A stretch of 60,079 nucleotides of DNA from positions 1-60,079 of the forward strand of contig JAAYGY010000053.1 of assembly GCA_012735575.1 (NCBI GenBank), in the 5' to 3' direction. Below the pieces are notes generated by a model. The model was not told the DNA's origin, made no database searches, and saw nothing but the letters and a program-made list of their open reading frames with translations. Source of the stretch: Clostridiales bacterium (GTDB lineage Bacteria; Bacillota; Clostridia; Caldicoprobacterales; UBA3941). This document shows positions 10,069 to 56,601 of the stretch, in pieces; position 1 is the stretch's first letter; each line of letters starts with the position of its first letter. A program made the position numbers and the translations under genes.

Positions 10069-10710
10069 TTATTTATTTTGCAGCTTATATATAACCTTAA
10101 AGCCCTCTTCCTCCAAAGCCTTTTCTATATCCGCCGTATTCAGGGCATCCATACCAATTACAACAGCACTTTTATCTGCAGTTCCACGATAAACAGCTAC
10201 ATTGGATATGTTAGCACCAAAATTGCTTATAATACTGGTTAATTTGGACATAATTCCAGGGGCATCCACCGCCTCGATTGTAAGCCTTGTTCCTCTTTCA
10301 CGGAAACCTAGAAGTTCGATAAAGGCATCAAAAATATCACTCTCAGTAATTATTCCCACCAATTTATCCCCATCCATAACGGGTAAAAAACTTACGCTGT
10401 TATCCCGCATCAGTGTGGCTGCCTCTTCAAGAAGTGCATTGGGTGAAATGGTAATAGGGTTTTTAGTCATTATCTTGCTTACCTTGGTTTTAGCCAAAAG
10501 ATAATTGACTTCACCTATGCTGAGAGTCGTGGCTTGTGATGGAGACGCACGCAGAATATCCTCTTTAGATACTACTCCCACTAGTTTCCCATTCTTTAGC
10601 ACAGGCAATCGCCTAATATTGTGTTGCTGCATAATTTCCTGTGCATCTGGTACTGTTTGGTCCGGGGAAATAGTATAGGGATTTGAAGTCATCTTTTTCC
10701 AAACAAACAT
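10069..10710 (-). CDS. CBS-pair plus ACT domain protein (AcuB-like), last gene of liv operon
   Basis: A 213-residue cytoplasmic protein with two CBS motifs (about 1-60 and 75-135, each with an M-T-x-N-P-x-T-I-S opening) and an ACT domain (about 140-213: LTIEAVDAPGIMSKLTSIIS). CBS pairs usually bind adenosyl nucleotides and ACT domains bind amino acids. The gene starts 6 nt after livF; its SD (GGAGG) lies in the last livF codons, so translation is coupled. The context suggests it senses branched-chain amino acids and/or nucleotide status for the transporter or metabolism. No enzymatic domain is visible, so the role is inferred. Confidence 0.85.
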   Translation of the reverse strand: MFVWKKMTSNPYTISPDQTVPDAQEIMQQHNIRRLPVLKNGKLVGVVSKEDILRASPSQATTLSIGEVNYLLAKTKVSKIMTKNPITISPNALLEEAATLMRDNSVSFLPVMDGDKLVGIITESDIFDAFIELLGFRERGTRLTIEAVDAPGIMSKLTSIISNFGANISNVAVYRGTADKSAVVIGMDALNTADIEKALEEEGFKVIYKLQNK

Positions 10711-10716
10711 ATACTC

Positions 10717-11421
10717 TCAACCTCCTAAATAAGCTTTTTTAATCTCATCGCTTTTCATAAGCTCAGCGCCTGTTCCGGTGAGAACTATGGATCCTGTCTC
10801 CATAACATATGCACGATCTGCAATCTGTAATGCCATATTTGCGTTTTGTTCTACCAATAGAACTGTAGTCCCTGCTTTATTTATATTATTTATTATATCA
10901 AATATTTCCTGTACTAGTATAGGGGCTAAACCCATGGAGGGCTCGTCTAGAAAGAGTATCTTGGGACGACTCATTAATGCTCGCCCTATAGCAAGCATTT
11001 GCTGTTCTCCACCTGACAGAGTACCGGCCATCTGCTTTCTTCTTTCCCTAAGGATAGGAAAGTGATGGTATACCATCTCTAAGTCCTTGGCGATTTCATA
11101 CTTATCCTTTCGAAGATAGGCTCCCAGATCCAGGTTTTCCATAACCGTTAAACCAGGAAAGACCCTACGGCCCTCTGGTACATGAGAAATACCCATCTTT
11201 ACCCTTTCCTGGGCAGATGTATTTGTTATATCTACTCCATTTAAGTAAACTGTACCCTGTGTTGGCATTTTTAAGCCGGAGATAGTACGCAGGGTTGTGG
11301 TTTTTCCTGCACCATTGGCACCAATCAAAACCACGATTTCCCCTTCATTTACCTCAAGGGAGACCCCTTTAAGAGCATGAATAACACCATAATGTACATC
11401 AATGTTTTTAACTTCAAGCAT
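10717..11421 (-). CDS. livF: Branched-chain amino-acid ABC transporter ATPase LivF
   Basis: One of the two ATPases of the high-affinity Liv/HAAT importer. In 234 residues it has Walker A GANGAGKTT (about 33-41), the signature LSGGEQQML, Walker B ILFLDEPSMGLAP and a switch His in LLVEQN (here a Q-N variant typical of LivF). The size and the EPSMGL signature fit LivF rather than LivG. Its ATG overlaps the end of livG by 8 nt, with GGGGAGG upstream. Confidence 0.95.
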   Translation of the reverse strand: MLEVKNIDVHYGVIHALKGVSLEVNEGEIVVLIGANGAGKTTTLRTISGLKMPTQGTVYLNGVDITNTSAQERVKMGISHVPEGRRVFPGLTVMENLDLGAYLRKDKYEIAKDLEMVYHHFPILRERRKQMAGTLSGGEQQMLAIGRALMSRPKILFLDEPSMGLAPILVQEIFDIINNINKAGTTVLLVEQNANMALQIADRAYVMETGSIVLTGTGAELMKSDEIKKAYLGG

Positions 11422-12199
11422 CGTTGACTTCCTCCCCTAAATAAGCTTCTATTACCCGCTTATTAGATCTGATCTCCTCAGGGGTTCCACTGGCGATTAC
11501 CATACCATAATCAAGCACATAAATACGTTCACATATATTCATAACCAATGACATATCATGCTCAATAAGCAAGATTGTTAAATCAAACTTTTCCCGGATC
11601 CCCTTTATTATTTGTGTAAGTTCAGCGGTTTCAGCAGGATTCATACCTGCTGCAGGCTCATCCAATAGTAGCAGGCTGGGATTGGTTGCTAAAGCCCTTG
11701 CAATTTCCAAATGACGTTGTTCTCCATAAGGTAGATTCTTTGCCAATTCATCCTTTTTATCCTCTAGATTAAAAATCTTCAACAGCTCTATGCATTCATC
11801 CACAAGTTCCTTCTCCTGTCTTCCATAAGATGGCAGGTGTAGGAAACTTTGCAAAAAACCGTATTCTACATTTTTATGCATGGCAATGAGCACATTTTCA
11901 AGTACCGTCAAATCCTTAAACAGCCGGATATTCTGAAAAGTTCTTGCCAACCCTGCCCTGCATATTTTATTGGGTCTTAAACCCTGAAGCGCTATTTCTT
12001 CACTATCTTTAAATAAACTAATAGTTCCACTATCCGGTGTATATATACCAGTCAATAAGTTAAATAAGGTGGTCTTGCCTGCACCGTTGGGCCCTATAAG
12101 ACCAACCAGTTCACCTTTTTCCAGTTTAAGGCTTGCCTTAGCTACAGCTGTCAAGCCGCCGAAGGATTTTGTTATTTTCTTTACATCAAGGATTGTCAT
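11414..12199 (-). CDS. livG: Branched-chain amino-acid ABC transporter ATPase LivG
   Basis: The second ATPase of the Liv importer, 261 residues. Walker A is GPNGAGKTT, the signature region is LPYGEQRHLEIARAL, and Walker B is LLLLDEPAAGMNP followed by the switch histidine in LLIEHDMSLV. The AGMNP and YGEQRRLEIA-type motifs are characteristic of LivG. It sits 3 nt after livM; the SD GGGAGGG lies over the livM stop. Confidence 0.95.
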   Translation of the reverse strand: MTILDVKKITKSFGGLTAVAKASLKLEKGELVGLIGPNGAGKTTLFNLLTGIYTPDSGTISLFKDSEEIALQGLRPNKICRAGLARTFQNIRLFKDLTVLENVLIAMHKNVEYGFLQSFLHLPSYGRQEKELVDECIELLKIFNLEDKKDELAKNLPYGEQRHLEIARALATNPSLLLLDEPAAGMNPAETAELTQIIKGIREKFDLTILLIEHDMSLVMNICERIYVLDYGMVIASGTPEEIRSNKRVIEAYLGEEVNDA

Positions 12200-12202
12200 A
12201 CC

Positions 12203-13144
12203 CTAAACCCTCCCTCTTTTAGATTTTAAGCTGTTCCCTAGTTTGCCTAAAACCTCCAGGGAAAGCTCTTTTGATCCCATCAGTCCTTGAGGGCGGAAGA
12301 TCATTATAGCAATCAAGGCTGCTGCATATAAAACCATACGAATTTCAGGGAAGGATTGCAAATAAGTGGAGATTAGAGCCAAAAGGATAGCTGCTAAAAT
12401 GGAACCTGATATACTGCCCAGTCCTCCTAAAACCACAATAACCAGAATGTCTACAGATTTTAGGAAACCAAAGAGGTCAGGTTTTATAAAATAAAAATAG
12501 GAAGCATAAAGAGCACCTGCTATACCTGCACAGAAAGCTCCTATAACAAAAGCAGTTACCTTATACTTTATGGTGTTGATGCCCATTGCATCAGCTGCAA
12601 TCTCGTCTTCCCGTATAGAGATGCAGGCACGCCCATGTGCTGATTTTATAAAATTAGATATACCTAGTACAGTAGCTACCACAAAGACAAACATCCAGGT
12701 CCAGTTAACAAACTGGGGGATACCATTTAGACCTGCTGCACCATTGGTGATCTCCAGATTAAGAAATATAATACGTATAATTTCAGACATTCCCAGGGTA
12801 GCAATAGCCAGATAATCCCCTCGTAGCCTTAAGGTAGGCAAACCAACGAGAAATCCTATAAGTGCAGCCGCAATGGCTCCTGAAAATACTCCTATCAAAA
12901 AGCCATATATGGTGGGTGTTCTCAAAGTTATAAAGGCACAGACATAGGCGCCTATGGACATAAATCCAGCATGGCCTAAAGAGAATTGCCCAGTAAAACC
13001 GGTGATCAGGTTAAGGCTAACGGCAAGAATTATGTTGATACAAACAGTGACCAAGGTTGCCTGAAGGTAATCGCTAATGATATTAGTCATAATTAATATT
13101 TGGATAATTGCATAGGTTAGCCCAAGTGTAACTAACTTCTTCAT
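12203..13144 (-). CDS. livM: Branched-chain amino-acid ABC transporter permease LivM
   Basis: Polytopic membrane permease of 313 residues with about 8-10 hydrophobic segments. The LivM hallmark GQFSLGHAGFMSIGAYV is near residues 52-68. The cytoplasmic coupling loop, around RACISIREDEIAADAMGI, would contact the LivF/LivG ATPases. An AAGG SD precedes the ATG at 13144, 3 nt after livH. Confidence 0.94.
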   Translation of the reverse strand: MKKLVTLGLTYAIIQILIMTNIISDYLQATLVTVCINIILAVSLNLITGFTGQFSLGHAGFMSIGAYVCAFITLRTPTIYGFLIGVFSGAIAAALIGFLVGLPTLRLRGDYLAIATLGMSEIIRIIFLNLEITNGAAGLNGIPQFVNWTWMFVFVVATVLGISNFIKSAHGRACISIREDEIAADAMGINTIKYKVTAFVIGAFCAGIAGALYASYFYFIKPDLFGFLKSVDILVIVVLGGLGSISGSILAAILLALISTYLQSFPEIRMVLYAAALIAIMIFRPQGLMGSKELSLEVLGKLGNSLKSKRGRV

Positions 13145-13147
13145 GGA

Positions 13148-14053
13148 TCACACCTTCTCTCTCGTATTCTTACCCAGTAGTCCCGAAGGCTTAACTATAA
13201 GGATCAAGATCAATATGGCAAAGACCACAGCATCTCTATACATAGAGCCTCCATAGCCAGCCACCATTACCTCTACAGCACCAATAAAATATCCGCCTAT
13301 CATAGCACCTGGAATGATCCCGATTCCACCAAAAACAGCAGCTATAAAGGCTTTTAGTCCAGGAACTACACCCATTAAGGGGTTAATGGTATTGTAATAG
13401 ACTCCAACCAAGACTCCTGCTGCACCAGCAAGGGCTGAACCCAGGCCAAAGGTGAAAGATATTGTGGAATCCACGTTTATTCCCATAAGCTCTGCTGCAT
13501 CCTTATCCATGGAAACAGCACGCATAGCTTTCCCTATCTTGGTTGTTTTTACAATAAACTGTAGCAATATCATCAGGGCTATGGTAATACTTACCAGTAT
13601 AATCTGCTGCATGGATATAACTAAACTGCCCATATTCATGGTTTTAGCCATTATGCCTGTCATTTCAGGATAGGTTCTTACATTTGCGGAAACAAAAAAC
13701 ATCATGCCGTATTCTAAAAACAAGGAAACTCCAATGGCAGTAATCAAAGCAGATATCCTTGTTGCGTTACGCAGAGGCCTATATGCAATCTTTTCTATCA
13801 AAATGCCTAAGAGGGTGCATACAAGCATGGCAATTATCAGGGATGAAAAAAAACCCAGCTTTAAAAAGGTCATACAAAAATATCCCACGTATGCGCCAAT
13901 CATATATATGTCAGCATGGGCAAAATTTATCAATCTTATAATTCCGTATACCATGGTATAACCCAAGGCCATAAGTGCATAGATACTGCCCAAGGTTATT
14001 CCATTTACTATCTGTTGTAACAATCCTTCCAAATCCTTTACCTTCCCTTCCAT
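13148..14053 (-). CDS. livH: Branched-chain amino-acid ABC transporter permease LivH
   Basis: Polytopic permease of up to 301 residues. It carries the LivH opening LLQQIVNGITLGSIYALMAL and the coupling-loop segment GKAMRAVSMDKDAAELMGI. The ATG at 14053 has no SD. A TTG at 14032 (codon 8) lies 8 nt after GGAAGGGAAGG and gives MEGLLQQIVNG, close to the usual family start, so the true start is probably 14032. It follows livK after a 115-bp gap containing a large hairpin. Confidence 0.93.
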   Translation of the reverse strand: MEGKVKDLEGLLQQIVNGITLGSIYALMALGYTMVYGIIRLINFAHADIYMIGAYVGYFCMTFLKLGFFSSLIIAMLVCTLLGILIEKIAYRPLRNATRISALITAIGVSLFLEYGMMFFVSANVRTYPEMTGIMAKTMNMGSLVISMQQIILVSITIALMILLQFIVKTTKIGKAMRAVSMDKDAAELMGINVDSTISFTFGLGSALAGAAGVLVGVYYNTINPLMGVVPGLKAFIAAVFGGIGIIPGAMIGGYFIGAVEVMVAGYGGSMYRDAVVFAILILILIVKPSGLLGKNTREKV

Positions 14054-14100
14054 TACATTTTTTGGATATGGAGATGTGTTAATAATTGTTTAGATAAAAT

Positions 14101-14142
14101 AGCAAATAAGTAGGGTAGAGTAATCATCCCTACTTATCTGCT
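14101..14142 (-). terminator. Partial terminator / stabilising hairpin between livK and livH
   Basis: AGCAAATAAGTAGGG (14101-14115) and CCCTACTTATCTGCT (14128-14142) form a 15-bp stem with one G-U position on the RNA. It is followed on the minus strand by an AT-rich tract rather than a clean T-run. It probably lets the binding protein be made in excess over the membrane components. Confidence 0.6.
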
Positions 14143-14168
14143 AAGTATCTAAAATGTTAACTAATTAA

Positions 14169-15323
14169 TTATTGACCAAACTTTTCAACACTTGCCTGTA
14201 CTCCATTTTCCAGGCCTATTACTATGATCTCTTTTACAGGGTTATGATTTTCGTCTATGCTGAAAGTACCTGTAACACCTTGGAAGTCTTTAGTTTCTTC
14301 TAAAGCTTTCTTCAGGGACTCACCATCGAGTTTTTCTGCGCGCTTAATGCCGTCTACAACGAACATTGCCGCATCGTAACCTAAAGCATTGAAAGCATCA
14401 GGATCTCTATTATATTCTTCTTTAAAGTCCTCAATAAACTGTGCCACTGCAGGGTCTGGGTCAAGAGCAGAGTAATGGTTTGAAAAATATACATCATTAA
14501 GAGCGTCAGCACCAGCAAGCTTTACAAGATCAGGTGAATCAAATCCGTCAGCACCAAGGATTGGTACATCTATACCCAAAGCTCGTGCTTGCTTGATTAT
14601 AAGTCCTGCTTCCTCATAGTATCCAGGTATATAGATAACATCAAAGTCCTTTTCCTTGATACTGGTGAGTATAGCGTTAAAATCAGTATCCTTTGCAACA
14701 TAGGATTCCTGAGCAACTATGGTACCGCCAGCTGCCTCAAAGGTTTTAGTGAAGTTCTCAGCCAGTCCCTTACCATAGTCACTGGAGCTATCCATAATAA
14801 CTACAGCCTTTGTCTTTCCAAGTTTTTCTATAGCATAATTAGCCATAGCTGTTCCCTGATAGGAGTCGTTAAAGCAGATACGGAAAGCATATTCCTTAAG
14901 TCCAGAATCATCCACAGTAACATCATCGGCTGTAGCTGAACCTGATACAACTGGAATTTTGTGCTTTTCTGCAACAGGAATCTCCGATTTAAAAGAACCG
15001 GAAGTAGCAGGTCCTAAAATAGCAACAACCTTATCCTGTGTAATTAGTTTGTTGGCCAGGGTAGTGGCTTCAGCAGGTTCAGATTTATTATCATACTTAA
15101 CTAGTTTAATCTTCTTTCCATTTACTCCGCCTGCTTCATTAACCTGTTTGATAGCCAGTTCAATACCATCCACCGAGCTCTGTCCATAACTGGCAACACC
15201 TCCGGACAGCTCGTAGTTGACACCGATTCTGATCTCATCATCGCTAGCAGCTGGTGAAGAACAACCTATAAAGATAGCCGCAACCAGCAAAAGCATAAGT
15301 CCGGTGTATATAGATTTTTTCAT
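14169..15323 (-). CDS. livK: Branched-chain amino-acid binding lipoprotein (LivK/LivJ type)
   Basis: Extracellular, lipid-anchored substrate-binding protein of 384 residues. The signal peptide ends in the lipobox IFIGC (C21). The mature part is a type I periplasmic-binding fold, with IRIGVNYELSGGVASYGQS at its start and motifs such as VDGIELAIKQVNEAGG and GPATSGSFKSEIP. It is the first gene of livKHMGF plus the CBS-ACT gene. AAAGGAGG precedes the ATG. The preferred ligand (Leu/Ile/Val or another amino acid) cannot be read from the sequence. Confidence 0.94.
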   Translation of the reverse strand: MKKSIYTGLMLLLVAAIFIGCSSPAASDDEIRIGVNYELSGGVASYGQSSVDGIELAIKQVNEAGGVNGKKIKLVKYDNKSEPAEATTLANKLITQDKVVAILGPATSGSFKSEIPVAEKHKIPVVSGSATADDVTVDDSGLKEYAFRICFNDSYQGTAMANYAIEKLGKTKAVVIMDSSSDYGKGLAENFTKTFEAAGGTIVAQESYVAKDTDFNAILTSIKEKDFDVIYIPGYYEEAGLIIKQARALGIDVPILGADGFDSPDLVKLAGADALNDVYFSNHYSALDPDPAVAQFIEDFKEEYNRDPDAFNALGYDAAMFVVDGIKRAEKLDGESLKKALEETKDFQGVTGTFSIDENHNPVKEIIVIGLENGVQASVEKFGQ

Positions 15324-42344: not shown

Positions 42345-43562
42345 GTGGTAACTAATGGCAAAAAATACTTACTTAAAAACTTCACTATCTTCTTACTTCT
42401 TATATCTTTTGGTTTACTCGTGGGATGCAGCTTTCCATTCACCAGTATCTTTACTGTAAAGCCTTCCCTTCCAATAGATCAAGATAGTCCTGATTCCAAT
42501 ACAGATAATCAAAATAATCTTGATTCCAATGCTGATAACCAGACAAGTAATCAGAACAATTCTAATAATGATACTAATAGTGATTCTAATAACCAACCTA
42601 TAATAAATGAGGACTTAGTATCAAATTTAGATAAAGAAAAAACTAAAGGTAATGTTAAGTACATAGGCTTTGAGGATCTTGATAATGAACATCTTGATAA
42701 TATTGATGACAAGAATTCCGACAGCTTAGATGACAATGATAACAATAACAGGGATCAAAATGAGGGAACAAACAGTGATAAGGACATGAATCCTCATAAC
42801 GATAATGATTCCGAAAGCAATAATGATATTGATAATACTGATAATGAAACTAATGAAACAGAACAGGATGAAAATTCATCAAAACACTATAAAACCGAGG
42901 CTGTACCTGCAGCTAAAATAATTAAGAATTCACCAAACAAGGAGTTAAAAAGGGTGGCTCTAACCTTCGATGACGGACCCGATGCTTATTTCACTCCTCA
43001 AGTTCTGGATATATTGAAAGAATACGATGTGAAGGCTACCTTCTTTATTCTGGGTATTGAGGGAAACAAAAACCGGGATGTCTTAAAAAGAATAGACGAG
43101 GAAGGCCATGTGGTAGCCAATCATAGCTGGAACCACAGCAATTTTACAAAAATATCAAAAAAGAAAGCCATTGATGAACTTCAAAGAACCAATCAGTTAA
43201 TAGAGGAAGTTACAGGCAAACCCAACTCCCTATTCAGGCTACCTTATGGAGCCTACAATCGCAAGGTTCTTGAAATAATAGCAGAGCAAGGCTTTCATAA
43301 TATACACTGGTCCATAGATCCAAGAGACTGGTCCGGTATATCCTCCAAGAAAATCCTGAACCATATAAAGGAGAACCTGGAACCCGGTGCTATAAATTTA
43401 CTCCATTCTAGTGGATCAAGTGATTCTATCCCTAATACAATAAAAGCCCTGCCCCAAATAATAGAATATTTGCATGGACAAGGCTATGAACTGGTTACTG
43501 TCCCAGAACTATTGGAAGATGTTCTAGAAGTCAATACTGTAGAAGTAAATACTAAGGATTAA
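42345..43562 (+). CDS. Lipoprotein polysaccharide deacetylase (NodB domain) with Asp/Asn-rich linker
   Basis: Extracellular lipid-anchored CE4 deacetylase, probably acting on peptidoglycan or another wall glycan. I use the GTG at 42345, 8 nt after GGGGG. It gives a Lys-containing n-region, an h-region and the lipobox LLVGC (C28); the ATG at 42300 has no SD and would spoil the signal peptide. A very acidic Asn/Asp linker of about 150 residues follows, then the NodB domain: TFDDGPD (catalytic and metal Asp), NHSWNHSNF (metal His pair), RLPYGAYN and DPRDWSG. All key residues appear intact. Its 3' end overlaps the convergent lipoprotein gene by 11 bp. Confidence 0.9.
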   Translation: MVTNGKKYLLKNFTIFLLLISFGLLVGCSFPFTSIFTVKPSLPIDQDSPDSNTDNQNNLDSNADNQTSNQNNSNNDTNSDSNNQPIINEDLVSNLDKEKTKGNVKYIGFEDLDNEHLDNIDDKNSDSLDDNDNNNRDQNEGTNSDKDMNPHNDNDSESNNDIDNTDNETNETEQDENSSKHYKTEAVPAAKIIKNSPNKELKRVALTFDDGPDAYFTPQVLDILKEYDVKATFFILGIEGNKNRDVLKRIDEEGHVVANHSWNHSNFTKISKKKAIDELQRTNQLIEEVTGKPNSLFRLPYGAYNRKVLEIIAEQGFHNIHWSIDPRDWSGISSKKILNHIKENLEPGAINLLHSSGSSDSIPNTIKALPQIIEYLHGQGYELVTVPELLEDVLEVNTVEVNTKD

Positions 43563-45081
43563 CTATATAAGGATTGAGTTGGTTAAAGCTTTTTTCCCAT
43601 CTGGCTACATAGTCACCTGTAGCCCATTCCACCATAATAACCGACTCTCCTTTTTTTATGTCTATTTTCTTTATAGGTTTTTCAGAAATCTCCCCATTTT
43701 TTATGGTATACACCATAATGAAATTACCAGTTATCACTATCAGCAGTTCCTTGTTGGGAGATGTATAGGCATCCAGTGCCATAGGTACCTTCTCCTTAAT
43801 AGTATCCCAAGGTACATGAAGATCATCATAATTTACCAGTTTGCCTACAGGAGAAAGGCCGATAGTAAACTCCTCATAACTGTTTCCAAGGTCTACCCTG
43901 CCCTTTAAAGTCCAGTTGCCGTTCCTTCTTTCCAGAGCAAAGTTATCCTCAGTGACTGTAATCATGTCTTTTAATTCTGTATTTGTCTTGATACCATTGG
44001 ACACAAGATGAGCCTGTGCAGAAGTATAGAATATGTCTTTCATATTCTCTCCTGCAATATCAGATACCAGAATGCCGTTTTGGCTGTTTGCATCATCCAG
44101 GGGTAATACCCTATAGCCCCTCTCTGTAACAGTGCCCATACGCCATGTATATTCTACGGCAATATAATCATCGCTGACAAAGAGCAAATCCTTCTTAATA
44201 TTTCCCTTTAAGACTGTCATATTCTGTTGATCCGCCTCTTTTATAATTGTTCCCCTTGGCACCAGAGGCTCCAGTACTATATTGTCCTGCAAAAACTCAT
44301 TATATTTTCTCACTTTTACCTTCAAGGTCCAAAAACCACTTCTTCTGGGAATAAATAAATTAGGCACCTCTAAAGTGGACTTTATATCCCTATTATAAGA
44401 AGAAATCCAGATGGTCCTGTAGCTGGATCTTTCGCTAAATATATCTTCCTCGTTAGTACTGGGAACTGTTGAACGCAAACCTATAAGAACCCCTGATCTC
44501 AACAGATTATCCTGGGCTTCGGTTCTCTCAACATGATTCTGTTGGTTTTTTTGCTCATCAGCATAGTAATTGTCCGTTTCATTGGAAACCTTTTTTAGCC
44601 AGTAAAAGCAGTTGTCCATATATATCAAAGCAGTGTCTTTATCTATCATAGCTATCTCAAAAAAGAGGGATCCCTTTGATATGATAGATATAATATCAAT
44701 CATTTCACTGCCGATATCTAACTCTTCCATATCCACATTATGGTGAAACACCATATAATCCCTTGTTTTTACCCTTCTAATCTGATACCTGGCATCTGTG
44801 CAACTTTCGTCCGCTACCCTGGCCCAGTTATGGGCAAAAACAGCTATATTATCCAAAAGCTTTTCAAAGTCTTTAATGCTGTCCTGATCCTCCTGGATAT
44901 CAGATATTCTGGTAAAATCATAAATCTTCCAGGTGCCCTGGATGGGAATTGCTTTGTTTTCAGGAGATACAATTATCTGCCCGGAATTAAGCTGAGGAAT
45001 TCCCTGACAGCCTGTTAACAAAAGCAGGATAGCCAGTATTATACACCAGTTTTTTGTATATGCCTTTTTGATGTATTTCAA
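43552..45081 (-). CDS. Uncharacterised lipoprotein, last gene of the prsA-like/two-component operon
   Basis: A 509-residue exported lipoprotein: signal ILAILLLLTGC with C25. The start is TTG at 45081 with GGAGGGG about 12 nt upstream; no ATG fits the signal peptide. The rest is beta-rich with repeated segments ending in W-x-L-K/W-T-L-K-G-R (FWTLKVKV, NWTLKGRV), and no catalytic motif that I recognise. It starts 39 bp after the histidine kinase stop and probably belongs to that operon. It may be an extracellular sensor or effector of the kinase, which is inference. It is convergent with and overlapping the deacetylase gene. Confidence 0.85.
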   Translation of the reverse strand: MKYIKKAYTKNWCIILAILLLLTGCQGIPQLNSGQIIVSPENKAIPIQGTWKIYDFTRISDIQEDQDSIKDFEKLLDNIAVFAHNWARVADESCTDARYQIRRVKTRDYMVFHHNVDMEELDIGSEMIDIISIISKGSLFFEIAMIDKDTALIYMDNCFYWLKKVSNETDNYYADEQKNQQNHVERTEAQDNLLRSGVLIGLRSTVPSTNEEDIFSERSSYRTIWISSYNRDIKSTLEVPNLFIPRRSGFWTLKVKVRKYNEFLQDNIVLEPLVPRGTIIKEADQQNMTVLKGNIKKDLLFVSDDYIAVEYTWRMGTVTERGYRVLPLDDANSQNGILVSDIAGENMKDIFYTSAQAHLVSNGIKTNTELKDMITVTEDNFALERRNGNWTLKGRVDLGNSYEEFTIGLSPVGKLVNYDDLHVPWDTIKEKVPMALDAYTSPNKELLIVITGNFIMVYTIKNGEISEKPIKKIDIKKGESVIMVEWATGDYVARWEKSFNQLNPYIVNP

Positions 45082-49926: not shown

Positions 49927-50844
49927 TTATTCAAAATTCTCCATAATATATCTCTGCGCTGATAAGGTCCCAATGGCACCATCTGATGCGGCAGTTACCA
50001 GTTGCCATACGGGCTTGTAGCGTAGGTCACCTACTGCAAAAACTCCGGGTACATTGGTTGCCATGTTCTCGTCTGTCAATACAAATCCATCATCAGTCAT
50101 ATCTACCTTGCCTGCTATCAGGCCGCTGTTAGGCTGGATTCCAATTGCTATAAAGAATCCGTCCAATTCCAGCTGAGATAGGGAATCGGTTTTAAGATTC
50201 CTAACCTTGATGCCTTCTACCTGCTCCTCACCCATTATGGACTCCACTACAGTGTCCCATAATATTTCAATTCTGGGATGAGCCATAACCCTATCCTGCA
50301 GGATTTTAGATGCTCTTAGCTGGTCTCTTCTATGAATCAGGTACACCTTGGATGCATATTGGGCAAGGAACATGGCGTCCTCGGTAGCAGTATCACCACC
50401 ACCAACAACAGCGGTTACCTTATCCTTATAAAATGCTCCATCACAGGTGGCGCAATAGGATACGCCCCTGCCTCGGAATTGTTCTTCCTTTTCAAGCCCC
50501 AGCATCTTTGGGCTTGCACCCATTGCTAATATGATGGTTTTGGTTTGGTATTCCTTATTATCGGTAATTACTTTTTTAATCTTACCATCTACTTGTATAT
50601 CCTTTACTTCATCATAAAGAATCTCCAGCCCAAATTTACGTGCATGACTTTCCAGTTTCATAGCAAAGTCAGGTCCGCTTATAGGATCTACAAATCCTGG
50701 ATAGTTTTCAATACTATAAGTAGTAGCAGCCTGGCCACCTACAAACATCTTCTCAAACAGCAAAGTATCCATTCCACCTCTTTGGGCATACATACCTGCT
50801 GTAAGTCCTGCTATACCTCCACCAATAATAATAATGTCCTTCAC
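49927..50844 (-). CDS. trxB: Thioredoxin reductase-like FAD/NAD(P)-disulfide reductase
   Basis: A 305-residue flavoenzyme with an FAD loop (IIIGGGIAGLTAG), redox motif CATC in SYCATCDGAF (about 130-133), NAD(P) loop VVGGGDTATEDAMFL and C-terminal FAVGDLRYKPV. GTG at 50844, 10 nt after AAGGAG, gives the family-typical MKDIIIIGGG; the ATG at 50874 has no SD. The IHRRDQLRAS segment after the second Rossmann loop carries the HRR basic residues typical of NADPH-dependent TrxB. It is likely the electron donor for thioredoxin. Ferredoxin-dependent reductases lack this NADPH motif. Confidence 0.92.
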   Translation of the reverse strand: MKDIIIIGGGIAGLTAGMYAQRGGMDTLLFEKMFVGGQAATTYSIENYPGFVDPISGPDFAMKLESHARKFGLEILYDEVKDIQVDGKIKKVITDNKEYQTKTIILAMGASPKMLGLEKEEQFRGRGVSYCATCDGAFYKDKVTAVVGGGDTATEDAMFLAQYASKVYLIHRRDQLRASKILQDRVMAHPRIEILWDTVVESIMGEEQVEGIKVRNLKTDSLSQLELDGFFIAIGIQPNSGLIAGKVDMTDDGFVLTDENMATNVPGVFAVGDLRYKPVWQLVTAASDGAIGTLSAQRYIMENFE

Positions 50845-51140
50845 TGGTACTTCACTCCTTCCTGTTTCACCCATCTTATCTTACATATAACCCCCAAATC
50901 TATATCTAACCCTTAACTTATATATCTAATCCTTAGCTTTTAAGTTATTATACCCCAAATAGTAGATTTTGTGAATAATTGACATTAGTAAATCCATATC
51001 TTGTATTGTATGTTTAGAAAAATAATGATAAAATAGTACAATATAGTATATTATTACATAATATATCCAAATCTGTCGACACCGTTTTACAGACCTCAGC
51101 CATTTCTTTTTACAGTAATCAGGAGTGAAGGAGTGCTATT

Positions 51141-53075
51141 ATGAAAATTCGGGGATTAACAAAAGATAATGATGCAGTTTTAGAAAAAATTATCAACTGG
51201 GACTTTACAGATGAGGCCGAAATGCAAATTAAGAGAGCAGATCGTACTCATAGACAATTATATGAAAACCTGAAAAGTTTTATTAAAGATTTTTCTTCCG
51301 ATTTTAATGATATCAAGCTAATTTCCGATCAACTGTCAGGCTTTGTTGAAGTAATGATGGATTCTTCAAAGAATCTTCAGGTAGCAACAGAATTCATTTC
51401 AGAAGGTGCACATAATCAGGCTAATGACCTTAATACCTGTCAATATATTGCTGATATGCTATCTGATAAAATCTCCATGATGAGTGAAAAATTTAATAAC
51501 CTGATTGAACTGGCCCATGAAATGAGCGATGTAAGTTCCCACGGCAGGTCTGCTGTACTAAACCTTTCTGAACAGCAGAATAAGATCTACGAAACTAACA
51601 ATATAATTGTAAAAGAAATAGATCAATTGCTGGATAAGACAAAAACCATTGACGAAATTACAGCAGTATTATTTAATATCGCCAAAAGGACAAACCTGCT
51701 GGCACTGAACGCTGCCATTGAGGCATCAAGGGCTGGAGAAGCAGGTAAAGGCTTTGCTGTAGTAGCAGAGGAAATAAGAAGATTATCAGAAAACAGCAGT
51801 GAAGCCAGTAAATCTATAAATGACAATATTAACGAAATAATAACCCAGCTTAATAGCCTGGAACAGGCCATGAATAGCTCAAAAGAAAGCTTTGACAATC
51901 AATCCCAGGCCGTCAATGAAGTAATAAACGCCTTTGAACGCATCAACTCTTTTATCGACAACTATATTTCAAATCAGCAGGATCTAAACTTTGATGTAGT
52001 AGAGCTTTTGAAAGAAAAAGAGGAGTTGATTACCGCCTTTGATAACATAGCCAATATTGTAGAAGAATCCTCGGCTACCATTCAGGAAGTGGCTTCCTTG
52101 ACAATTGATCAGAATAATGCTGTAAATATAACCTATAAAATGACACAGGACTTGAGTGAAAAGGTTAATAATATATTGGATAATACCAGAGATATAAAGA
52201 TTGAAAGGATAGAAACCAAACAGAAGGATATTGCAATGATCTTTGATATTGAGTCTCCTTTCTGGGGACCCACTATCAAGCAGGCAACAAAAACCGCTAA
52301 TGCTTTTAACTTCAACCTGGAATTCTTTGCACCTAAGACCAGGGAAAGAGGTGCAGAGGATATGCTTACAGCCATTAATGGTTTTATTGCCAGGAATTTT
52401 GATGCCATTATTATCAGTCCCATCGATACCCCTCAAATACGTCAGGTACTGAAAGAGGCAGCTTCCAAGGGCATTAAAATTATATTTATTAATTCGGCTC
52501 TCGATGATGTACCCTACGAAACCCTTATAGAAACCAACGGTTATGAGTTTGGCAGAAATGCTGCAAAAACGGCAAAGCAGATTCTAAATAACCACGGTAG
52601 CGTACTGGTGGGTGTTTGGTCAGACCTTAGAATCCACTCTATCGATCAGCGTGTACAAGGTTTTATAGATGAGCTTGAAAATAATTCAAATATAACTGTA
52701 TTTAAGCGGGATATTCTCAGCACTCCCACACAGGAGCAGCTAAATGATATAGCTGAATTTATACGTACAGAACAACCGGATATTAAACTGGTATTCTCCA
52801 CTGATGGAGAATGGAGTGTTGCCTATGGGGAGTATATTAAGAGATATAATCCTGGTTTTGAGGTGTTGACAGTGGACTTTTTCCAGGACATTGCCAGTCT
52901 CATAAAATCCGGTCATATTAGAGCCTCTATTGCTCAAAGGGCTTTCTCCTGGGGAACCATGGCTTTGGAATTCCTTATGGATATCTTCCAGGGTAAAACT
53001 GTTACCCAATATACTGATACCGGAACCTACGAGGTCAACTTCAACAATATTTCCATATACGAGAGAAGATTATAA
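51141..53075 (+). CDS. Soluble chemoreceptor-like protein with C-terminal sugar-binding-protein domain
   Basis: A 644-residue protein with no signal peptide or transmembrane segment. Residues about 60-350 are a long coiled-coil MCP signalling domain with the conserved hairpin tip [20 protein letters not shown] (183-202) and [13 protein letters not shown]. Residues about 364-644 are a type I periplasmic-binding (ribose-binding-like) domain: [28 protein letters not shown] and VLVGVWSD. Binding domains of this type are normally outside the cell; here it must be cytoplasmic and C-terminal. It may sense an intracellular sugar or cyclitol and signal to CheA. No che genes are nearby. AAGGAG precedes the ATG. 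Monocistronic. Confidence 0.88.
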
Positions 53076-53188: not shown

Positions 53189-55243
53189 ATGAAAAAAGCC
53201 CTCAAAGCCGGATCACTACTGCTTTATTTTGATTTTTCCCTTATCTTCTATGAGATTGTACTAAAACTGTCTTTATCACAAGCCTCCTCTTGGGATAGTT
53301 TTTTCTATATTCTACTGTTTAATATGTCCTTTTCCATCTTGTTTTTTCTTGTAGCTTCCTTATTTAACGGGAAGGATAGGTTTGTACTAGCCTTTATTCT
53401 GCTGTTTTTATCCGGTGCTGTCTTTGCCAGCCAAATGATATATTACAGGTTCTTTAAAACCTTCTATACAGTATTCTCGGCTTTTAAAGGTGGAAAGGCC
53501 TTTGAATTCTGGAAGGATATCTTGTATATCCTTAGCAAAAACTGGGTCTGGTTGGTTTTGTTTTTCCTGCCTTCCATACTAGCCCTCATACTAAAAAACA
53601 GGCTTTTATTCTGCCAGCGCCCAAAGATTGGATCCTTTGTGCTGTTGCTACTTTTATTAGTAGTATTTCAGGGCATAGCTACAGCAGGTATTTATTTAGG
53701 TGACCGGGGTCCCAACTCCCCATATAACCTGTACTTTAATCCGGGGAACCCCCTAATATCCGCTGAAAAGCTGGGGCTGTTAACCGCTATGCGCCTTGAT
53801 GCACAAAGGTTTATTTTTGGCGATACCTTTTCTATTGTACCTGTCCATTCACATGATGAAGCTTCCCAACCTATAGCAGAGGAATCTATAGTAAAACCAG
53901 TTAATCCTGACAAGCCCCTTCAGCCTAAAGATGAAGAAGAGAAAGATAATGAAAAAGAAAATGAAGGAGACAATGAACAGGTTGATCAAGTAGAAGAGGA
54001 GATAGTACCAGAGCCAAATATCCTGGACATAGACTTTGCAAAACTTATTGAGGATGAAGAAAATGAAAAAATCAAAGACATGCACGGTTACTTTAGCAGT
54101 CTGACTCCAACATATAAAAATGAGTACACGGGAAAATATCAGGGATATAATCTTATCCTGATTACAGCAGAGAGTTTTTCACCCTATGCGGTCCACAAAG
54201 ATGTTACCCCAACCCTATACAAACTGGTCAATGAAGGTTATAGATTTACAAATTTCTATAATCCCGTTTGGGAAGTTAGTACCTTAGACGGTGAATATGT
54301 AGCCTGTACCAGCCTTTTGCCAAAAAGAGGGGTATGGAGCCTATACCTGTCAGGAAAAAACTTTATGCCCTTTACCATGGGCAATCAGTTAAGAAAGATT
54401 GGCTATAAGACAATGGCCTACCATAACCACACCTATGATTACTATAACAGGGATATCTCCCATCCAAATATGGGATATGAATATAAAGGTATTGGCAACG
54501 GACTAAATATATCAAAGGCATGGCCCCGTTCTGACCTGGAAATGATGGAAAAAACAGTTCAGGAATATATAAATGATCAGCCTTTTCATGCCTATTATAT
54601 GACGGTAAGCGGCCATATGCAGTATAATTTTTTCGGCAACCATATGGCAATGAAAAACAAAGAGTATGTAAAGAATCTGCCCTACACCGAAGCAGCAAAG
54701 GCTTACATTGCCACCCAGATAGAGTTTGACAGGGCTATGGAGTATCTGCTGGACCAGCTGGACAAAGCCGGAATTGCCGATAAAACCCTGATAGCCATAA
54801 GCGCAGACCATTATCCTTATGGGTTGGAGGATAATGAAATAGATGACCTGGCAGGCCATGTTGTGGAAAAGAATTTTGAACTTTATAAAAGTCCCTTTAT
54901 CCTGTACACTAAAGGTATGGAGCCTGTTACAATAGATAAACCCTGCTCCAGTCTTGATATTATCCCCACCCTGTCCAACCTGCTAGGGCTTGAATATGAT
55001 TCTAGACTGTTAATGGGCAAAGATATCTTTTCAGACTCCCAGCCTTTGGTTATATTCCAAAACAAGAGTTTTATCACAGAAAAAGGACGCTATAATGCTG
55101 TAACCCAGGAGTTTTTTCCGGTGGATGGCCAGCAGGTGGATGATAATTATATTGATGAGATTTTAGATATTATCGATAAAAAGTTTAATTATTCAGCTAT
55201 GATATTGGATACAGATTACTATAGATATATTTTGGAGGTCTAG
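53189..55243 (+). CDS. LtaS-type membrane sulfatase (lipoteichoic acid synthase family)
   Basis: A 684-residue membrane enzyme with five N-terminal TM helices (to about 170), an acidic Glu/Lys-rich linker (about 228-275), then an extracellular sulfatase-fold domain. The LtaS catalytic set is visible: E328 (ITAESFS), the nucleophile T365 (VSTLDGEY), H476 (SGHMQY), D540 and H541 (SADHYPYG). LtaS transfers glycerol-phosphate from phosphatidylglycerol onto glycolipid. Related sulfatases act as primases or on other polymers, so the exact product is open. The linker is unusually long. GGAAGG precedes the ATG. It is followed after 2 nt by the C69 peptidase gene. Confidence 0.88.
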   Translation: MKKALKAGSLLLYFDFSLIFYEIVLKLSLSQASSWDSFFYILLFNMSFSILFFLVASLFNGKDRFVLAFILLFLSGAVFASQMIYYRFFKTFYTVFSAFKGGKAFEFWKDILYILSKNWVWLVLFFLPSILALILKNRLLFCQRPKIGSFVLLLLLLVVFQGIATAGIYLGDRGPNSPYNLYFNPGNPLISAEKLGLLTAMRLDAQRFIFGDTFSIVPVHSHDEASQPIAEESIVKPVNPDKPLQPKDEEEKDNEKENEGDNEQVDQVEEEIVPEPNILDIDFAKLIEDEENEKIKDMHGYFSSLTPTYKNEYTGKYQGYNLILITAESFSPYAVHKDVTPTLYKLVNEGYRFTNFYNPVWEVSTLDGEYVACTSLLPKRGVWSLYLSGKNFMPFTMGNQLRKIGYKTMAYHNHTYDYYNRDISHPNMGYEYKGIGNGLNISKAWPRSDLEMMEKTVQEYINDQPFHAYYMTVSGHMQYNFFGNHMAMKNKEYVKNLPYTEAAKAYIATQIEFDRAMEYLLDQLDKAGIADKTLIAISADHYPYGLEDNEIDDLAGHVVEKNFELYKSPFILYTKGMEPVTIDKPCSSLDIIPTLSNLLGLEYDSRLLMGKDIFSDSQPLVIFQNKSFITEKGRYNAVTQEFFPVDGQQVDDNYIDEILDIIDKKFNYSAMILDTDYYRYILEV

Positions 55244-55245
55244 CT

Positions 55246-56601
55246 ATGTGTGATACCATGGTAGCCCTGGGCAATGCCACAAGGGATGGAGTAACCCTTT
55301 TCGCAAAAAACAGTGATCGGCAGCCTAATGAACCCCATATACTGGTTAGGATTCCTAGAAAGGAGCATGGACCCAATGCAAAGGTAAAGTGCACCTATAT
55401 TGAAATGGACCAGGTGCCCTATACTTATGAAGTACTGCTACTGAAACCTTCATGGATTTGGGGCTGTGAAATGGGCTGTAATGAGTTTGGACTTAATATT
55501 GGGAATGAGGCTGTCTTTACCAAGGAGCCCTATGGCAAAGATGCCCTGATTGGTATGGACATGGTCCGTTTGGCCTTGGAAAGATGCAAGACCAGCAAAG
55601 AAGCCCTTATGCTGATTATTGACCTTCTTGAAAAGTACGGCCAGGGGGGAAACTGTGGATACGAAAAGCCCTTTACCTATCATAACTCCTTTTTAATAGC
55701 TGACAGCAATTCTGCATGGGTACTGGAAATTGCAGGCCAGTACTGGGTGGCTGAAAAAGTAAAGGATGTGCGCTGTATTTCCAACTGCCTGTCCATAGGA
55801 AGTGAATTTGATCTGTGCCATCCGGATCTAATAAAGCATGCCGTAGATAAGGGCTGGTGCAAGAGTGAAGAGGATTTTCACTTTGCCCGCTGCTATAGCG
55901 AACCCATTTTTACCCACTTTAGCGGATCCAAAAATAGGCTGGCAGCATGTTCATCTATTCTGGAGCAACATAAGGGAAATATTACACTTGATACCATGAA
56001 AAATGCCCTACGTTACCATGAAGATGGGATAAAGGAAAACCCTTTTAGGCATAGTTCCCTTAAAAGCGTATGCATGCATGCCGGTTTTTTATTCGGTGAT
56101 CATACTACCGGCAGTTATATAGCGGCAATACATGACAAACTTCCTACATACTGGATTACTGGCAGCTCCACTCCCTGTATTTCTGTCTTCAAGCCCTACT
56201 GGATGCTGGATGGGGAGGAATTTATATTTGAAGAGAGGGAAGAAGATCTTGCCTTGGAATATTGGTATATAAGGGAAGAGTTTCATAGAATGGTATTGGA
56301 AAACAGAGTGCAAAATTTGGATTATTATATACAAAAACGGGATGAGCTTGAAAAGGAATTAAGCAAAGAAGTCAGTAACTTGGATTTTGATAATCCTGAT
56401 GAAAATAAATTAAGGGATATAATGAAAAAAGCCATAGAAGAGGAAGAAAAACTCATCCTTGATACCATGGCTAAAAATCAGAATAATACTGCAAAAATTA
56501 AGGGCAACCCTTATTTCAGGTACTACTGGAAAAGGCAGAATAAGAATCTACGTTCTAAAATCCAATCTAAAATCCAGCAGCCTAATACCTTGCAAAAGTA
56601 G
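55246..56601 (+). CDS. Peptidase C69 / secernin-like N-terminal nucleophile hydrolase
   Basis: A 451-residue protein beginning MCDTMVALGNATRDGVTLFA and then KNSDR. C2 becomes the N-terminal nucleophile after Met removal, as in secernins and C69 dipeptidases (CDTFVA...KNSDR). Later blocks WGCEMGCNEFGLNIGNE and ISNCLSIGSEFD fit the Ntn fold. There is no signal peptide, so cytoplasmic. The C-terminal 100 residues are a Lys/Glu-rich helical extension. GGAGGT of its SD overlaps the ltaS-like 3' end and the spacing is 2 bp, so translation is coupled. Substrate unknown; a link to wall-polymer or peptide turnover is only suggested by the context. Confidence 0.87.
   Translation: MCDTMVALGNATRDGVTLFAKNSDRQPNEPHILVRIPRKEHGPNAKVKCTYIEMDQVPYTYEVLLLKPSWIWGCEMGCNEFGLNIGNEAVFTKEPYGKDALIGMDMVRLALERCKTSKEALMLIIDLLEKYGQGGNCGYEKPFTYHNSFLIADSNSAWVLEIAGQYWVAEKVKDVRCISNCLSIGSEFDLCHPDLIKHAVDKGWCKSEEDFHFARCYSEPIFTHFSGSKNRLAACSSILEQHKGNITLDTMKNALRYHEDGIKENPFRHSSLKSVCMHAGFLFGDHTTGSYIAAIHDKLPTYWITGSSTPCISVFKPYWMLDGEEFIFEEREEDLALEYWYIREEFHRMVLENRVQNLDYYIQKRDELEKELSKEVSNLDFDNPDENKLRDIMKKAIEEEEKLILDTMAKNQNNTAKIKGNPYFRYYWKRQNKNLRSKIQSKIQQPNTLQK

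Follow-up and report, generated by a model that had tools for sequence, protein, structure and literature searches.

In LacI-family regulators a type I PBP works in the cytosol; the order is output module and then PBP, and the PBP drives an N-terminal dimeric output. The same fold is found in RbsB and MglB, which with Trg act as separate proteins outside the inner membrane, and in XylFII-LytS of Clostridium, where an extracytoplasmic PBP is the sensor on a separate histidine kinase. Some chemoreceptors have their ligand-binding domain (LBD) at the C-terminal end; in these, for example MCP-CZB receptors such as H. pylori TlpD, the MCP hairpin is followed by the sensing domain, and they are often soluble. 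They are described as a little-studied subfamily in which ligand domains of at least 17 Pfam types follow the MCP module, the zinc-binding CZB domain being the commonest (PMC7390727). The ligand domains of cytoplasmic arrays are thought to lie mid-sandwich, between two layers (PMC3964821).

A gene joining an MCP hairpin to a sugar-binding PBP was found in the window, which is the whole stretch of 60,079 nucleotides that was analysed. The gene and its parts are as follows.

51141..53075, + strand: MCP-PBP receptor gene, 644 aa (ORF reading and Pfam)
51130..51133, + strand: GGAG ribosome-binding site, 7 nt 5' of the ATG (sequence reading)
51141..51242, + strand: residues 1-34, low-confidence N-terminus (AlphaFold2 and alignment)
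51243..52187, + strand: residues 35-349, MCP helical hairpin (Pfam and AlphaFold2)
51690..51770, + strand: residues 184-210, hairpin tip, the CheA/CheW and trimer contact region (invariant columns; alignment with the MCPs of the genome)
52050..52100, + strand: residues 304-320, motifs resembling methylation sites (5/6 consensus positions each)
52188..52217, + strand: residues 350-359, linker between hairpin and PBP, of invariant length (alignment of relatives)
52218..53072, + strand: residues 360-644, type I PBP (Peripla_BP_4), sugar-binding domain (Pfam, AlphaFold2 and Foldseek), with F374, W375, R504, D555, D579 and Q599 as pocket candidates

The reading frame opens with ATG and runs for 644 codons with no internal stop, and a stop codon lies in the same frame four codons ahead of the ATG. 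Pfam matched MCPsignal to residues 156-306 (E = 2.9e-30; 105.8 bits against a cut-off of 34.6) and Peripla_BP_4 to residues 370-619 (E = 5.7e-33; 115 bits against 35.1). Both scores are so far over the cut-offs that chance matches are excluded. No HTH model of Pfam matched the N-terminal part, where the MCP hairpin is found instead. An AlphaFold2 model, built from 13 relatives, gave low confidence for residues 1-34, a helical hairpin at 35-349 with its tip near residue 200 (pLDDT mostly 55-76, moderate confidence) and a PBP fold at 360-644 (pLDDT mostly 84-93). The order that the sequence-only reading had given, MCP hairpin first and ribose-binding-protein-like domain last, was thus confirmed by both methods. 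The best Foldseek matches of the PBP part were Thermotoga glucose-binding, Thermoanaerobacter ribose-binding and related sugar-binding proteins, with target-normalised TM-scores mostly of 0.7-0.9 and E = 4.9e-18 to 2h3h; sequence searches likewise put this part among the binding proteins for ribose, glucose and arabinose.

A 24-residue stretch of the hairpin tip is conserved and aligns with the other MCPs of the genome; two residues ahead of it, before TNLLALNA, most MCPs read x-Q and this protein reads K-R. The two methylation-like sites agree with the consensus at 5/6 positions and no site reaches 6/6. The C-terminus is unlike a CheR/CheB pentapeptide. Arms of about 150-165 residues would put the hairpin near the receptor class of 44 heptads.

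With its ligand domain after the MCP module (Pfam, AlphaFold2), the protein resembles the C-terminal-LBD receptors and can be read as a variant within this known kind; where CZB is their commonest domain, it carries a type I sugar PBP of 285 residues. A search of mainly open-access articles gave no paper on a chemoreceptor with Peripla_BP_4 or with a sugar PBP at its C-terminus. In common with LacI-family regulators, the protein has a cytosolic type I PBP as effector domain, placed after the output module and a short linker; their output is an HTH with a hinge helix, whereas here it is an MCP hairpin and the best Pfam match is Peripla_BP_4, not a LacI-type model. RbsB and MglB share the fold and several pocket residues, and the output would be sugar chemotaxis as with Trg, but in the present protein the PBP is fused and inside the cell. 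In the same way, XylFII, whose structure was among the search matches, is comparable as a type I PBP sensor and differs in standing outside, on a separate kinase. An H-NOX-MCP encoded in the same genome (L172:3916-5730, - strand, contig C31) also has its sensing domain on the cytosolic side, although it is an N-terminal haem domain for gas sensing and the protein has TM helices.

No membrane helix was detected in the receptor; the highest 19-residue Kyte-Doolittle mean was 1.17 and fell within the PBP domain. Neither a signal peptide nor a lipobox, as in transport SBPs, was found, so the PBP part, judged by sequence, has the fold of a transport SBP without being one. A TM or signal segment overlooked 5' of the ATG was ruled out by reading all three upstream frames in the window genome and in the close genome G002. 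Since the MCP hairpin can only lie in the cytosol and no membrane crossing follows it, the PBP is cytosolic too, and the receptor as a whole is predicted to be fully cytosolic, as had been proposed from the sequence. The accompanying premise, that this fold normally works outside the cell, does not always hold, LacI-family regulators using it in the cytosol. The reversed domain order to which the sequence-only reading had drawn attention is real here and has a precedent in the LacI order. Another is the C-terminal-ligand-domain receptor class described in PMC7390727.

The fusion is not a one-off, as the taxonomic survey raised with the sequence-only reading showed: the family is Clostridia-wide and mostly of two-TM members. 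Relatives with the fusion were found in two close genomes at 81% and 73% identity (the latter in G002) and across Clostridia at about 25% identity. At order level the MCP-PBP fusion was found in 4/30 genomes. At class level there were strong matches in at least 13 of 391 genomes (12 full-length, one truncated), a lower bound with three candidates scored per genome. Among 398 sampled from the phylum, it was present in two genomes: that of the window and G573, which belongs to another class and has two copies. For named isolates, a plasmid collection gave MCP-only matches, without the MCP-PBP fusion. Seventeen MCP-PBP proteins formed one group in the tree of the PBP domain (support 93/95), apart from the transport SBPs taken in, and one group in the tree of the MCP domain (97/91, starred), apart from the ordinary MCPs taken in. 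By these searches and trees the family is sparse but real in Clostridia.

Most members carry two N-terminal membrane helices joined by a very short loop and followed by a HAMP-like stretch. The window protein begins about where this stretch begins, and its residues 1-34 align with the HAMP-like stretch directly after TM2. In these membrane-bound relatives too, the PBP is placed in the cytosol by the predicted topology. The membrane-free members are the window protein and those of G001, whose gene begins at a contig edge, G002, G025 and G573 (copy b). In the MCP tree they make up a single clade (99/94), where the program warns of long branches meeting, and in the PBP tree two adjacent groups; membrane anchoring may have changed once or twice in the family.

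A second group of MCP-PBP proteins was found in about 6/391 genomes (G370, G099, G344, G242, G112 and probably G295). Its members have the same Pfam pair, as checked for two of them, with hairpins and PBPs distant from those of the main family, and are most simply read as an independent fusion. Two-TM MCPs with Peripla_BP_4 of this second group were seen in other Clostridia at L150:6652-8814 (- strand), L152:6214-8400 (- strand), L106, L111, L151 and L153.

Measured from residue 200 at the hairpin tip, the distance to the first PBP strand, at 363, was 164 residues in 17/17 measured members of the main family, identical in soluble and membrane-bound members. In the second group it was 169 in 5/5. 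The N-terminal arm of the hairpin is also gap-free in the family alignment, and hairpins as such tolerate few indels. A free linker should vary in length; its constancy at 25% identity points to direct coupling of hairpin and PBP, and the spacing suggests a mechanical gearing of the one to the other.

The ligand pocket of the domain was compared with that of RbsB, whose twelve ribose contacts were found at their expected positions in the RbsB sequence used. The window protein keeps F15, R141, D215 and Q235, has W in place of F16, and differs at N13, N64, D89, R90, F164, N190 and F214. Phe15, Arg141 (R504) and Gln235 (Q599) are invariant in 13/13 aligned relatives, and Asp215 (D579) is kept in 12 of the 13. 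Asn190 corresponds to Asp555, a position with Asp or Asn in all aligned sequences. Asp89-Arg90 is replaced by Asn451-Ser452 (Asn-Ser throughout the window clade), which makes ribose itself unlikely as the ligand. Our best guess from these residues is a monosaccharide-like ligand other than ribose.

The surroundings of the gene and the chemosensory loci of the genome are listed below. CheA, CheW and CheR were called by Pfam searches; CheB, CheC, CheD and the other cluster names come from ORF reading.

49927-50874, - strand: trxB, flanking the receptor gene
53189-55243, + strand: sulfatase-domain, LTA-synthase-like gene, 3' flank of the receptor gene
55246-56601, + strand: C69 peptidase, after the LTA-synthase-like gene
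contig C30 of the window genome: flagellar/che cluster with CheA, CheW, CheC and CheD
contig C82 of the window genome: CheA-MCP-CheW
contig C57 of the window genome: MCP-CheW-CheA
contig C67 of the window genome: CheR-CheB-MCP
L137 (G002, contig C115), 5774-13845: CUT2-type sugar ABC operon with a YesM/YesN-like pair (assigned by eye, not by model)

The LTA-synthase-like gene and the C69 peptidase also lie 3' of the receptor gene in G001 and G002, and not in L042, the locus of a 58% relative; the receptor and the genes at 53189-56601 (+ strand) are possibly one transcription unit. No sigma-28 promoter (TAAA-N13..16-CCGATA) was found in the window. Matches to sigma-70-like promoters were about twice the shuffled mean, in an AT-rich stretch, and were left out of the argument.

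In G002, about 8 kb with the CUT2 sugar transporter and the YesMN-like two-component pair stand between trxB and the receptor gene. The SBP of this operon is 81% identical to one on a different contig than the receptor in G049, a genome of a distant family, and had no match in the window genome or G001 at 1e-5; by these comparisons the operon looks like a mobile insertion. It was ruled out as a guide to the ligand, being absent from the window genome and G001. The neighbouring genes of distant relatives had nothing consistently in common.

None of the neighbours of the receptor gene is a che gene. The view that it stands alone therefore holds at the locus but not for the genome, which has CheR/CheB and, besides the flagellar/che cluster, more CheA loci; CheR was found by Pfam at C67 and C101. 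The best-scoring other hairpin of the genome belongs to a two-TM MCP on C41 that has no ligand domain.

The reading we favour, at somewhat better than even confidence, is that of a soluble cytosolic receptor for a monosaccharide-like ligand that feeds CheA; ligand class, array membership, dimer mechanics and the sign of the response are the parts that we infer. The ribose/glucose-type PBP would bind a small ligand in the cytosol, most likely a monosaccharide or similar polyol, and would hang by the fixed-length linker from the base of the hairpin, where its C-terminal helix ends. In ordinary receptors HAMP sits at the hairpin base and drives via the N-terminal helix. Attached at the base of the C-terminal helix, the PBP can act on closure only there: closure of the Venus flytrap would alter the packing of the two C-terminal helices in a receptor dimer, and this change would run about 150 residues to the tip and alter the activity of CheA in a CheA/CheW array. 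A mid-sandwich place for ligand domains, as thought for cytoplasmic arrays (PMC3964821), would fit the position of the PBP. Adaptation may proceed via the CheR/CheB of the genome. The receptor would then be a LacI-type cytosolic sugar sensor with an MCP hairpin in place of the DNA-binding head, and its signal would report the internal pool of a sugar taken up or released. The sequence-only reading had offered either an internal-ligand receptor for the chemotaxis array or a role outside chemotaxis. An internal ligand is still the best reading, and chemotaxis is the default expectation for the output, as che genes are present elsewhere in the genome.

An output other than swimming, through a non-flagellar chemosensory system (with its CheA on C82, or with the 1012-aa one on C57), is rather unlikely; sensing and hairpin mechanics would be those of the favoured reading. 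Three CheA loci are present, the receptor is an orphan gene with no assigned CheA partner, and soluble receptors are often linked to secondary systems; against this stand the complete flagellar/che cluster at C30 and the hairpin itself, which is nearest to two-TM MCPs of the genome and order (that on C41, for example) and not to the MCPs of the C82 or C67 clusters. We regard it as unlikely that the PBP, instead of sensing a free metabolite, serves for docking or as a scaffold, or binds a protein such as an enzyme or a transporter part, with the receptor reporting that state. A PBP fold can do without a small ligand, no conserved transporter lies next to the receptor, and the pocket pair Asp89-Arg90 is changed, yet the other sugar-contact positions are kept at about 25% identity and the PBP domain is under strong purifying selection.

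Between the window gene and its nearest relative, dN/dS was about 0.09 for the MCP part and about 0.07 for the PBP part, with synonymous sites close to saturation; on these estimates purifying selection is acting on both domains. Such low values also speak against wrongly joined genes, gene decay or an artefact of sequencing, an explanation we find hardly credible. It could appeal to L042, where the 58% relative is read in two frames, but the break falls near residue 236, within the hairpin and not at the domain junction, and intact fusions exist in G001, G002, G025, G049 and many others. The frameshift artefact (two genes in relatives) that had been considered from the sequence was accordingly not borne out, and nor was a missed signal or TM segment, the upstream frames being clean. 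The shift in L042 lies at 10690-10705 (JAAYRE010000020.1), in a metagenome assembly where assembly error and real decay look alike.

More tentatively, and at rather less than even confidence, the favoured reading of a cytosolic sugar receptor may extend to a receptor class that arose at least twice, when a PBP was joined to the C-terminal helix of an MCP, and that binds free intracellular sugar via a LacI-like PBP and steers swimming by the internal pool, the signal entering via the C-terminal helix and not via HAMP and the N-terminal helix. Such a receptor may let cells steer by what was already taken up. If true, internal sugar sensing would be an extra link between metabolism and movement, beside external binding proteins and PTS/energy taxis. 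With its 164-residue register and its attachment to the C-terminal helix, the family could show cleanly whether that helix is able to drive an MCP hairpin, and the membrane-bound and membrane-free sister groups would allow the same sensor to be compared in membrane and cytosolic arrays.

Some other genes were observed. The CheA-like protein on C57 (L168:1760-4798, - strand) is unusually long, 1012 aa with two CheW-like stretches; next to its gene are a further, separately encoded CheW and the N-terminal part of an MCP-like protein, and this chemosensory system is distinct from the flagellar one. In the window, a 509-aa protein with no Pfam match at 1e-5 is encoded at 43552-45081 (- strand) beside a histidine kinase and a response regulator, and transporter genes of the branched-chain amino acid ABC type, with a Peripla_BP_6 binding protein, lie at 11414-15323 (- strand).
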